From assembly GCA_038744685.1 (NCBI GenBank), contig JBCDMB010000002.1:186001-250000 (forward strand): a stretch of 64,000 nucleotides of DNA, written 5' to 3'. Position numbers and translations under genes: made by a program. The DNA comes from Verrucomicrobiota bacterium. Lineage in GTDB: Bacteria > Verrucomicrobiota > Verrucomicrobiia > Opitutales > Puniceicoccaceae. Position 1 is the stretch's first letter; each line of letters opens with the position of its first letter. Positions 29,187 through 40,597 of this stretch are shown here, in pieces. Below the pieces are notes generated by a model. It searched no databases. It saw nothing but the letters and a program-made list of their open reading frames with translations, and had not been told where the DNA came from.

Positions 29187-30239
29187 CTAGGTATTCTCGC
29201 CAATTCTAAGAACAACACCAGATGAAGTATTGTACTTTCCTCCGACCAGGGCACAAAACAGGTAAGCAGGTCTCCCCTCCTTCATGAGAATCTGCGGACG
29301 TTCGAACCGCCCTTCACGTTCAAGACCGTTTGGAGCCTCCGGTAAGTAATGTTGAGAATTCAGGTAGGCGATCTGGGGCGCTTTCTCCCAATTCAAACCG
29401 TCAAGCGACTCAAGGTAGATGCCATACTCGTGATTGAAGAAGCCCATGTCTCGAAGGATCATCTTGTAAACACCGTCCTCGTGCCAGACATAAGCATCCT
29501 CAGTTTGCGCGTTTGGGATTCTCTTGCGCATGTTAATGATCGGGTTGCCGGGAAATTTCTCGTAGGGCCCAGTCGGTGAGCTGGCTGTCGCCAAACCGTA
29601 CTGCCGATTGGTGTGTATCCCCGTGTCCTCTGTTGCCGGCCGCATCCCAGTTGCCAGATCTTTGTTCCAATCCTCTACGCACCATCCCTTGTAATAAAGT
29701 CGGCACTCCCCGTCCGGCGAGCGAACAAATGCCGGATTTGAGGTAACCGCGCTATCCCAATCGCCACGAGGATCGGACCCCGCCTCGACAATAGGCCGGT
29801 CAAAACGTTCCCAAGGACCATAGAGCGAGGTGGAAACGGCTACGCCTACGCGCTTGGAAGTCACCATCCCGTCGCAGTTTCCCATGTAAAAGAGATAATA
29901 AGTGCCACCAATTCTGTGAATCGTCGGGTTATGGATCGTCATCGAATCCCAAAAATCACCTCCGCGGCCAATCAACGCCGTTTCCAGCACTTCATAGGGG
30001 CCCTCGGGTGATCGGGCCACCGCGTGCCCTATCTGGCTGCACTCCAGCCAACCTTTGTGCGCAGCCTCGTTGGCCCACTTGGAGTAGAATACATGGACGT
30101 TGCCGTCTTCATCAAGAATCGGCGAACAACCCCAAACGTTGTTTTTCTCATCTTCGAGTATACGACCCAAGCCAGTGAGGCGCTTTGCAAAAGTCGAAAG
30201 GTTTTCCTCAACCTCGGAAGCGATGGTCTGAATTTGCAT
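29187..30239 (-). CDS. Five-bladed beta-propeller glycosidase, paralogue B (family uncertain)
   Basis: 350 residues and no signal peptide, so cytoplasmic. Repeated short motifs, one per blade (GNVHVFYSKW, YYLFYMGNCDG, CRLYYKGW, VYKMILRDM, PAYLFCALVGG), show the five-bladed propeller of the GH43/GH32/GH117 type. Conserved acidic groups such as GGDFWDSMTIHNPT and QTEDAYVW are probably catalytic. The exact family cannot be fixed by eye. It is strongly similar along its full length to the gene just upstream (30268-31284), which points to tandem duplication; this copy has a short insert after GMRPATEDTGIHT. It lies between that paralogue and the GH2 in one operon, so the three probably act in turn on the same oligosaccharide. 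Confidence 0.82.
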   Translation of the reverse strand: MQIQTIASEVEENLSTFAKRLTGLGRILEDEKNNVWGCSPILDEDGNVHVFYSKWANEAAHKGWLECSQIGHAVARSPEGPYEVLETALIGRGGDFWDSMTIHNPTIHRIGGTYYLFYMGNCDGMVTSKRVGVAVSTSLYGPWERFDRPIVEAGSDPRGDWDSAVTSNPAFVRSPDGECRLYYKGWCVEDWNKDLATGMRPATEDTGIHTNRQYGLATASSPTGPYEKFPGNPIINMRKRIPNAQTEDAYVWHEDGVYKMILRDMGFFNHEYGIYLESLDGLNWEKAPQIAYLNSQHYLPEAPNGLEREGRFERPQILMKEGRPAYLFCALVGGKYNTSSGVVLRIGENT

Positions 30240-30267
30240 TGGATGCGGAATAGCAAGGAAGGATAGC

Positions 30268-31284
30268 TTAGTTCAGTCGTAAGACTACGGCCGAAGAGGT
30301 GTTGAACTCCCCTCCAACGATCGCACAGAAAAGATATTCTGGTTTGCCGTCTCGCATCAAAAGTTGCGGACGCTCGAAACGACCCTCGCGTTCCAGCCCG
30401 TTGGGTGCCTCCGGCAGATAAACCTGAGAGTTCAAATAGCTGATTTTGGGATACTGATCCCAATCCAGTCCATCTCTCGACTCAAGATAAAGACCATACT
30501 CATGGTTGTAGAAGCCCATATCCCGAAGAATCATTTTGTAGACACCGTCCTCGTGCCAGACGTAGGCGTCTTCGGTCTGCGCCTTGTCTACATACTGACG
30601 CATGTTCACGATCGGGTTGCCCTTGTATTTCTTATACGGTCCAAGTGGATTATCCGCTACAGCGAGACCGTATTGCCGGTTAGCCTGCCACCAGGTCCCG
30701 TCCTTCAGGTCGCGTTCCCGGTCAGCTTTGCTCCATCCCTTGTAGTAAAGGCGGCACTCGCCAGAAGGAGCCATCACAAATGCCGGATTGGAAGTGACCA
30801 GACTGTCCCATTGATCGGGCTCTTCCGATCCAGCAGGAAGAAGAGGTTCGTCCAACCGCTGCCAGGGACCATCCAGAGAATCCGAGAAAGCGACGCCGAC
30901 GCGCTTCGTCGCCACCGTTCCGTCGGAATTGCCCATGTAGAAGAGATAATATTTCTCTCCCACCCGATGAACCGTCGGATTGTGAATGGTCATGCTGTCC
31001 CAATAATCTCCCCCGCGCCCAGTCAGGACGGCTCCTTGAACCTCATACGGACCTTCCGGGTGAGGCGCGATGGCATGAGCAATTTCGCTACAGGTCAACC
31101 AACCTTCATGAGCAGCTTCGTTCCTCCAGCGGGAGTAGAACACATGAACGTTACCCTCACTATCATAGATCGGTGAGCAGCCCCAAACGTTGTTGTCCGG
31201 ATCTTCAAGAATTCTGCCTACGCCCTCTAGACGCTTCGCAAAATCGGAGAGCTGGGTTTCAATTTTAGATTCAATGACTGACAT
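30268..31284 (-). CDS. Five-bladed beta-propeller glycosidase, paralogue A (family uncertain)
   Basis: 338 residues, cytoplasmic. It shares almost every motif with the next gene: VWGCSPI, VHVFYSRW, GGDYWDSMTIHNPT, YYLFYMGNSDG, WDSLVTSNPAFV, AQTEDAYVWHEDG, MILRDMGFYNHEYG and PEAPNGLEREGRFERPQ. This is the first gene of the 31284-26646 operon (28 bp to the paralogue, then 6 bp to GH2). The operon is divergent from the LacI-family regulator, and a near-perfect copy of the candidate operator lies 81 bp before its start, so it is the most likely direct target of that regulator. The two copies may attack different linkages or sulfation forms. Confidence 0.82.
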   Translation of the reverse strand: MSVIESKIETQLSDFAKRLEGVGRILEDPDNNVWGCSPIYDSEGNVHVFYSRWRNEAAHEGWLTCSEIAHAIAPHPEGPYEVQGAVLTGRGGDYWDSMTIHNPTVHRVGEKYYLFYMGNSDGTVATKRVGVAFSDSLDGPWQRLDEPLLPAGSEEPDQWDSLVTSNPAFVMAPSGECRLYYKGWSKADRERDLKDGTWWQANRQYGLAVADNPLGPYKKYKGNPIVNMRQYVDKAQTEDAYVWHEDGVYKMILRDMGFYNHEYGLYLESRDGLDWDQYPKISYLNSQVYLPEAPNGLEREGRFERPQLLMRDGKPEYLFCAIVGGEFNTSSAVVLRLN

Positions 31285-38271: not shown

Positions 38272-40257
38272 TCACTTCAATAGGTGTTCATACTTTCGCG
38301 GTGCACGCGGTTTTGGTTTATGGACGACCAAGCGTAGCTCCTTCAACTCCGCACGACTTTGATCAGCCGCTACCCGGGCAATCACCCGTTCGGTCCCATC
38401 CCCATTGGAACGCACCGTGTGCTGCTGCATGACGCCATCCGTTGTCCATTCGGCGCCGTCAGCCGATCCCTCAATCACAAACCAATAGTCCGGTCCCAAC
38501 TCCTCCAATCGATCGAACTGCAGTGCCATGTAGCTGCCCTGAGCGTCCGATACTTCAAACCTGTGAGGAAGCTGTGTCGCGGACGGACTTTTTGGGTCCA
38601 TTGGATCGCCACCGTGGATGTACTCATCGAAATTAGTAACGCCATCCTCATCAGGATCGGCATTCGGCTCGAGCGTACCAAACTTCGCCTCGAAACTATC
38701 GGCGATTCCGTCACCATCTGAATCAAGGGGCGGAGGAGGCGCTTCTGAATCGACATCGTACAGATCGAACTTTGCCAAGATAGGCTCCAAACGTTCCTTT
38801 TCATCGATCAGGACGTCCTTGTATTCTCCGTGGGGCAACTCATCCAGTTTTGTAAAGGTGTCGTAGTCACTTGCAGGCTTGTTCACGTCATACCAACTGC
38901 CATAGCCGTCACGCATAACCTTGTCGCTGCGAATCATCTGAGTCTCGATGCGCATCGAATAGATCCAGTCACGATGATTGCGCTTCTCACCAGTCAGGTA
39001 GGGCCACATGCTTTGCCCGTCCAGCTTGTCGTAACCCTCCGGAAAATCGAAGCCCATGATATCCGCGAGAGTCGGCAAAATGTCTGTGACGTCCGCAACG
39101 ATTCTTTGACGGCCATTCACCTTGAGCAAGTGTTCGGGCGCATAGATCAAAAGCGGCACATGATGGCCCTGCTGACTTCGGACCCGGCCCTTCCCCCAGT
39201 TACCCGCGTTGTCCTGAGTGGCGTTGTCCGCCATGAATAGGATCACTGTGTTGTCAAACTCTCCGACTGACCGAAGCTTTTCGATATATTGCCACATCTG
39301 GTAATCCAAATACTCAACGTGATAGCTCAGTCCATCTGGAGTCATGTTGATCCGCTCGAAGGTCCCGTCGGGTCGTTCAATGTGTTTTGGATCCTTCCTG
39401 GTATATCCGTAACCACTCTCATCCCATTCGATCACGGGCGTTCGGGGCCAGACGGTCGGGGTGCCGGGTACCGCGTGATCTTTCGCCAAATGGCCTAGGT
39501 GTGGCGCATGAAAAACAAAAAAGGGTTCATCGGCAGCAATCGATCGATCGATGAAGTCAAAGATGTACTCCATCTCAAGATCCGGCGCATAGTCGTCGAT
39601 CTGGGTTTGGACAAACTTGAAAGGTTCGTTCGGGTAATCCGGGTGGTTGATCAGTTGGATTTCGGGCCACCAGAAGAATGACTCATGGTCCCAGTCCTTT
39701 GGATTGGCTGTCCGGAAGATCGGGTAAGGATTTTTATTCGGAGTGCCAAACGGATTCCAGCCCATTTGACGCGCAGGCTCTGCCGGATTGAAAACACCTT
39801 CGTTGAAGCCCATACTCAACAAGTCGCCACCATCACAGATGTGGGTTTTTGATACCCAGATATTCGCGTAGCCGGCATCGCGGCTCATATTGCCAAGAGT
39901 GATCGGGGCACTCTCATATGCAGTGTAGATGTTATGACAGTCCGTTCCGATGTGGCGGTTGTCCCAATACTTGTTCCGGTGCGCATACGTTCCGTTCATC
40001 AACGAGACCCGACTTGGCTTGCAGATGGTGGTCGCCCACATCGTCTCGACGAAACAGCCCGCTTCGGCAAGTCGATCCATCATCGGCGTTTTCGCGAGCC
40101 GATCTCCTGTCCACTTCGAAGACTCATAAAATGGAAACTCACGTGGACTAATATCGTCGGCCACAATGAGAATAACGTTGGGCTTTTCGGAGGCCACTGC
40201 CAACGGACAAACCGCAATAGCGGCAGCACTGATAAACAAGAAACAAAAATTCTTCAT
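38272..40257 (-). CDS. Secreted S1-family sulfatase with calcium-repeat C-terminal extension
   Basis: 661 residues from the ATG at 40257; an in-frame TTG at 40269 is less likely. The signal peptide is residues 1-22. IVADDIS supplies the metal site, and CKPSR at residues 79-83 is the formylglycine motif with VSLMNGTYAHRNKYW. ADNATQDNAGNWGKG replaces the usual DNG-type block. After the catalytic domain, DSDGDGIADSFE and DPDEDGVTNFDEY form a thrombospondin type-3-like calcium-binding stretch. A ~100-residue beta-rich tail follows (FEVSDAQGSYMALQFDRL), of the kind often seen at the end of verrucomicrobial exoproteins. The 313-bp inverted-repeat element lies 16 bp before the start codon, so it must affect, or even supply, the upstream transcription signals. 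Confidence 0.9.
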   Translation of the reverse strand: MKNFCFLFISAAAIAVCPLAVASEKPNVILIVADDISPREFPFYESSKWTGDRLAKTPMMDRLAEAGCFVETMWATTICKPSRVSLMNGTYAHRNKYWDNRHIGTDCHNIYTAYESAPITLGNMSRDAGYANIWVSKTHICDGGDLLSMGFNEGVFNPAEPARQMGWNPFGTPNKNPYPIFRTANPKDWDHESFFWWPEIQLINHPDYPNEPFKFVQTQIDDYAPDLEMEYIFDFIDRSIAADEPFFVFHAPHLGHLAKDHAVPGTPTVWPRTPVIEWDESGYGYTRKDPKHIERPDGTFERINMTPDGLSYHVEYLDYQMWQYIEKLRSVGEFDNTVILFMADNATQDNAGNWGKGRVRSQQGHHVPLLIYAPEHLLKVNGRQRIVADVTDILPTLADIMGFDFPEGYDKLDGQSMWPYLTGEKRNHRDWIYSMRIETQMIRSDKVMRDGYGSWYDVNKPASDYDTFTKLDELPHGEYKDVLIDEKERLEPILAKFDLYDVDSEAPPPPLDSDGDGIADSFEAKFGTLEPNADPDEDGVTNFDEYIHGGDPMDPKSPSATQLPHRFEVSDAQGSYMALQFDRLEELGPDYWFVIEGSADGAEWTTDGVMQQHTVRSNGDGTERVIARVAADQSRAELKELRLVVHKPKPRAPRKYEHLLK

Positions 40258-40273
40258 GGAAACATTCAATTTA

Positions 40274-40586
40274 GGGCACTTCGATTAACCTCCTTTGGCT
40301 CGTGATTGCGGCACCGCCGGAATCCGGGTGAGGCTGCGGAGAGGTTTGCGGGCCAGAGGCCCTCGGACCTCTCCGCTAACGCTGCCCGGAACCGGTGCTG
40401 CCGCAACCCCTTCCCTTCGGCAGGATCAGGGCCTTGAGTCTTATCGAAAGGCGGGGCGAGACACTTTTGGATTTGAGCCGCGTTGCGGCTTTGCAGACGG
40501 GCTTCTAGCCCGCCAAGCGAAGCCGTCGCCTTGCTCAAAACCAAAATTGCTCTCGTCACGTCCAAAGGAGGTTAATCGAAGTGCCC
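40274..40586. mobile_element. 313-bp MITE-like element with perfect 25-bp terminal inverted repeats
   Basis: The ends 40274-40298 and 40562-40586 are exact reverse complements over 25 bp (GGGCACTTCGATTAACC, then TCCTTTGG), and both are flanked by TTTA (40270-40273 and 40587-40590), a possible 4-bp target duplication. The inside is full of nested palindromes and encodes no credible protein. No transposase is in the window, so it would have to be moved in trans. It fills the gap between two minus-strand sulfatase genes, 11 bp from the stop of one and 16 bp from the start of the other. An alternative is a large non-coding RNA or recombination site. Confidence 0.8.
40306..40413. repeat. Large imperfect palindrome inside the MITE-like element
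   Basis: TTGCGGCACC near 40306 pairs with GGTGCTGCCGCAA near 40400. Inside it, GCGGAGAGGT pairs with ACCTCTCCGC around a GGGCC/GGCCC hairpin. The result is a nested stem-loop about 105 bp long. A second palindrome follows: ATTTGAGC / GCTCAAAAC near 40472 and 40538, with GACGGGCTTCTAGCCCGCC at its centre. Confidence 0.7.
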
Positions 40587-40597
40587 TTTATAGAGAC

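Follow-up and report, generated by a model that had tools for sequence, protein, structure and literature searches.

In the window, by which we mean the whole 64,000-nucleotide stretch analysed here, two sulfatase genes on the minus strand (both PF00884; 38272-40257 and 40598-42472, considered as context only) are separated by an element of 313 bp at positions 40274-40586. The first of these genes has its ATG at 40257, 16 bp from one end of the element, and the second ends 11 bp from the other. The element begins with a terminal inverted repeat (TIR), GGGCACTTCGATTAACCTCCTTTGG (40274-40298, plus strand), the first ~19 bp of which are also the end of an IS5-family insertion sequence (IS) in genome G055, and it finishes with an exact inverted match of that repeat (40562-40586, minus strand). 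Copies of a target-site duplication, TTTA, stand on either side (40270-40273 and 40587-40590), where other copies of the element carry TAGA, TAAA, CATA or TCTA. Two open frames, one of 99 aa on the minus strand and one of 176 aa on the plus strand, cross the palindromes of the interior and show no gene-like sign, so that there is no credible ORF. On all these points, from the exact 25-bp ends and their TTTA flanks to the position between two sulfatase genes, 16 bp from a start codon, the sequence confirmed what the initial annotation had claimed.

The two palindromic blocks that had been noticed in the interior proved to be hairpin arms of ~97 nt each which, together with an outer stem formed by the TIRs and a tiny middle hairpin, give a 274-nt cloverleaf. 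The folding energy of the element as single-stranded DNA is -115.8 kcal/mol, where shuffled sequences average -57.9 (z -13.4, 0/100). Arm A (40308-40404) carries the arm module in plus-strand orientation, as indicated by the fold and by a match to R3 (E 1.9e-14), a broader arm model of 41 arms and 30 pairs with a hand-drawn structure that replaces the R2 consensus (15 pairs). Arm C (40458-40554) has the module in minus-strand orientation and is thus inverted with respect to arm A (R3 match, E 6.1e-22; covarying alignments A2 and A4). Both contain a conserved motif, read from the sequence and the arm alignment, the 5' and 3' halves of which are GAGGCT (40330-40335) and AACGCT (40378-40383) on the plus strand in arm A, and AAGGCG (40527-40532) and AACGC (40480-40484) on the minus strand in arm C. 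R1, a covariance model of one arm with a building set that did not include arm A, matches arm A on the opposite strand, which marks the two arms as relatives in inverted orientation. The basic length of the element is 274, and the 313-bp form, represented by four of ten copies including the one in the window, has an additional palindrome of ~39 nt in the tiny middle hairpin (40411-40451). This insertion, CCTTTCGATAAGACTCAAGGCCCTGATCCTGCCGAAGG, is 88% like a hairpin repeat in genome G024, and is a repeat inside a repeat.

The lack of a second copy would have counted against the proposal that the element is mobile, but a similarity search of the 3.64-Mb host genome (in 56 contigs) found ten near-full copies, 79-100% identical, in addition to truncated copies and solo ends. 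Since so many near-full copies occur in the same genome, a chance origin is excluded. Exact 4-bp direct repeats flank 8 of the 11 copies having both ends (TTTA three times, TAAA twice, and TAGA, CATA and TCTA once each), while the remaining three comprise one with an exact 5-bp repeat (CTTTT) and two in which three of four positions match. Most of the copies checked are intergenic or lie beside gene ends. The solo ends (L082, L083, L084, L085, L086, L089, L090, L091, L093, L095), several of which keep TTTA-like flanks and have unrelated DNA inside, may be products of decay or end-only products. At L088:4839-4887 there is also a mini-element of ~50 bp, consisting of little beyond the two ends and flanked by TTAA and TTTA.

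A pattern search of the order recovered an intact IS in G055, starting with GGGCACTTCGATTAACCTCG directly after TTAG and encoding a 343-aa transposase that matches the IS5-family model NF033581 at 242 bits (cut-off 140), as well as PF01609 and PF05598. No intact parent IS was found in the draft assembly of the host genome, where a search for PF01609 returned only a pseudogene (L102) and two others without such ends. L102 is a decayed remnant situated between GGGCACTTCGGG and a right end that agrees with the element in 16/20 positions; its transposase fragment is 57% identical to the G055 transposase over 152 aa (E 3e-54). Judged by these sequence relationships, an IS5-family transposase is the likely mover of the window element. 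IS5-family transposase genes with like ends were found for three TIR types, namely the window TIR (G055), f5 (G048) and f22 (G104); for the gammaproteobacterial element described below the like IS end is weaker (14/18). The target duplications, 4 bp for the window TIR and TA for the f5 TIR, fit the short (2-4 bp), AT-rich pattern of the family. The window element and the G055 IS have only their terminal 18-23 bp in common, and consequently that IS did not give rise to the interior by internal deletion. Internal deletion of a parent IS is one common origin of miniature inverted-repeat transposable elements (MITEs), and is not required of all of them. Moreover, G116 contains MITEs of 93 bp and 165 bp with the same ends and without the cloverleaf core, so that, strictly speaking, movement can do without the core.

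The core extends far beyond the host. By DNA similarity, elements were located in further families of the order, and full elements from four families have the same general fold at 273-278 nt, usually with the middle hairpin, the copy in G034 folding less cleanly on its own. R1 found matches in 23 of 273 genomes of the order, representing 14 genera. Elements with this core carry at least nine types of TIR, and GAACCTATCTCAAATTC, GAACCTATCCCAAAACC, GAGCATATTCGCTTTAATC, GGCAGTGTCTGGAAATT, ATACCACTTCTAAAAAATTC and CAGGCTGCTGAAAAAG are examples unrelated to one another. G480, from another order of the phylum, holds multicopy single-arm variants of 175-188 nt with the TIR GCGTGGTGCGGCAGG (L177, L181, L184, L187, L189). 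A full element of 271 nt was also present on a contig of a gammaproteobacterial metagenome-assembled genome (MAG), alongside aroC and other proteobacterial-looking genes (ORFs read by eye). With R3, 54 of 369 genomes in a sample of the gammaproteobacterial class gave matches at E 1e-4 or better, and 315 gave none. Two-arm cloverleaves with varied TIRs were seen at 12 of the 15 loci inspected from this search (251-276 nt), and at both loci inspected in G605, a relative of the MAG. Across the order, the phylum and this class, the arms found by the covariance models are mostly in elements of 266-278 nt with unrelated TIRs. The folded core thus occurs in bacteria of at least two phyla. Those newly found gammaproteobacterial elements that have a recognisable motif place the AA arm, near position 55, ahead of the TT arm, near position 213. 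Reverse complementation leaves this arrangement as it was, and the same folded object is therefore obtained from both strands. Two sister elements in G055, L175 and L156, differ in that one arm has been inverted in place, the arms of L175 having the same orientation, which suggests flipping between the stem repeats. A match in the OFTM29 Phycisphaeraceae genome (L235) may reflect a binning error, because the Opitutales genomes carrying that element come from the same project. Pattern matches in Cytophagales (L214) and Paenibacillus (L231) had no cloverleaf and were dismissed as coding or chance, and a search of plasmids gave one short match, in Azotobacter. No description of such an element was found in the literature searched, which excluded most subscription journals.

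Comparisons between elements show that ends and core are decoupled as sequences. The first 20 bp of the window element are identical to those of the element in G023 (20/20), with cores that are 58% identical, whereas against G048 the ends agree at the chance level of 30% and arm C is 77% identical. An empty site is also available for an element of G048. The sister (f5) element L197, 278 bp long, has TA at each end, and the orthologous interval in G033 (L220) is without the element; when the flanks are joined through a single TA, the alignment runs over the junction with no gap there, at a modest intergenic identity. From this alignment, a duplication of TA upon insertion is consistent rather than proven, and the empty site supports mobility of the sister element. 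The suggestion of a non-autonomous transposon moved by an unseen transposase accordingly gained ground from several sides: the multiple copies, the 4-bp duplications, the same-ended IS5-family IS in G055, the decayed IS in the host and the empty site of the sister element.

Two lines of evidence indicate that the core is constrained. First, 80.5% of cells in the 41 arms are paired, as compared to 60.4 +/- 0.9 in shuffled controls, and the covariation score is 0.488, as compared to 0.175 +/- 0.012 when shuffled (0/500) and 0.10-0.22 when slid; because the R1 structure model had been used to find these arms, and the same alignment served for drawing the R3 structure, the counts lean towards structure. 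Secondly, all 41 arms contain the motif, a mid-stem helix of 3-4 bp that has RAGGC (few exceptions) at its 5' side and AAC(G/A)C at its 3' side. The structured core is real and is conserved well beyond the host species, and the plain MITE label does not explain it. In a covariance analysis of homologues, as proposed in the initial annotation for the RNA option, the structure covaries, but DNA and RNA cannot be told apart by covariation alone, some of which could result from template-switch correction of palindromes.

Our results favor, somewhat more than they leave in doubt, a superfamily of MITEs mobilised by IS5 transposases in which the folded core is selected for mobility. This grading is meant for the whole statement, which includes the putative role in mobility and is drawn from sequence comparisons; the plain identity as an IS5 MITE, taken by itself, is very likely. 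An IS5-type DDE transposase acting in trans would recognise the GGGCACTTCGATTAACC ends, move the element and duplicate a 4-bp target, a step for which the anatomy, the copies and the parent ISs provide the support. The interior is a conserved nucleic-acid cloverleaf and not the remnant of that parent IS, and it could fold as single-stranded or cruciform DNA, for instance on the lagging strand or in supercoiled DNA. Such a fold would keep both ends together at the foot of one stem, where any IS5-type transposase that fits them could bring about synapsis, although the link between core and synapsis is one that we infer. Each arm's double-bulge motif probably has a structural role or serves to bind a protein. 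Through exchange of ends the core would pass between element families, and the target of selection is probably the folded form during spread and not each resident copy as RNA. Tentatively, it could be hypothesized that the core is a selfish folded-DNA module that persists across phyla by acquiring, time and again, the ends of different IS5 lineages, and that works as a folded single strand with its motif recognised by a transposase or host factor, but in this full form we hold the proposal to be somewhat doubtful.

The main rival is an RNA role, in which IS5 mobility is retained and the core, transcribed from either side with the same fold, acts as RNA, whether to shelter the element or to stabilise, insulate or regulate transcripts. 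Strong covariation and the unpaired adenines kept in the arms would agree with this, as would the strand-symmetric design that folds equally from either direction and the intergenic or gene-end position of most of the copies checked. In addition, paired sites vary less than unpaired sites among copies within a genome (difference from consensus 0.027 v 0.050, 0.025 v 0.065 and 0.031 v 0.120). However, no credible Rfam match was obtained for the window copy or 13 related loci, and no promoter or terminator consensus was found near the window copy. Among the stem changes in copies, nearly all of which are uncompensated, G-U and A-C are about equally frequent (29 v 33), with no excess of G-U, although random insertion orientation weakens this strand test. 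Direct support for the regulatory RNA or recombination element that the initial annotation had offered as an option was thus lacking in the Rfam and promoter or terminator searches as well as in the stem changes, which have no strand bias, and we consider an RNA role unlikely.

Less probable still is that these are ordinary IS5 MITEs with hairpin interiors that are passengers, kept complementary by template-switch mutation only and spread by horizontal transfer. Palindromes are known to self-correct, changes in the copies are mostly uncompensated, and short same-ended MITEs without the core exist, all of which speak for passengers. Self-correction should nevertheless erase bulges, yet the motif adenines are unpaired in 37-38 of the 41 arms; and length (mostly 266-278 nt), arm order and motif are fixed while TIRs and stem sequences change. 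Mobilisation of a hairpin element by a tyrosine (Y1/HUH, RAYT) transposase, as in REP/REPIN, was rejected as very improbable on the strength of the target duplications and the IS5 ends, for although the element consists of two hairpins in inverted arrangement and the host genome (G000) has ~14 Y1_Tnp (RAYT-type) genes (L105-L119), most copies are flanked by direct repeats and have ends that match DDE-type IS5, neither of which is expected for REPs, and no arm module matched near the 14 Y1 gene loci.

The preferred reading of an IS5-mobilised element with a selected core can be set against known systems. REP palindromes measure 20-40 bp (PMC3733652), and the arms of the window element, which share with REP, BIME and REPIN the arrangement as two inverted hairpins in a host with Y1 genes, are far apart from them at ~97 nt and in their IS5-type surroundings. 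Correia, ERIC, Nezha and similar MITEs have near-perfect TIRs, robust secondary structures and often a position beside genes (PMC3733652), and the window element resembles them in size range, TIRs, folding and gene proximity. IS5-family MITEs are alike in being short, gene-less and multicopy, with IS5-type ends, short target duplications and NF033581/NF033580 transposases; unlike them, the window element has an interior unrelated to the parent IS and a cloverleaf in common with elements that have unrelated ends. Neither the two-arm cloverleaf nor the RAGGC/AACGC double-bulge motif is known from Correia, ERIC, Nezha or similar MITEs. Integron attC sites are folded single strands with conserved boxes that include AAC, unpaired bases and variable stems, and they have a paired R box (RYYYAAC/GTTRRRY) and an integrase nearby. 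The likeness to the window element ends where the AA is a bulge and not a paired R box, and where TIRs and target-site duplications flank the structure.

Taken one by one, features of a MITE are present (a short, non-coding element with terminal inverted repeats, dispersed copies, target-site duplication and ends common to an autonomous IS), and what is new is the cloverleaf core. MITE interiors usually pass for decayed filler; in these elements the core keeps its length, arm order and motif across phyla while ends are exchanged and stems are rewritten by covariation, and we know of no MITE with a core common to different phyla behind exchanged ends. Two questions thereby become open to test: is folded DNA structure what drives non-autonomous elements to spread, and can selection have a nucleic-acid module as its unit, independently of any single transposase? 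The covariance model and the motif also constitute a search tool for an apparently common repeat family that is undescribed in the literature searched.

Elsewhere in the window, at 29212-30643, a stretch of ~300 nt is duplicated at 72% identity with a spacing of 1072 bp, and this repeat probably represents duplicated genes.
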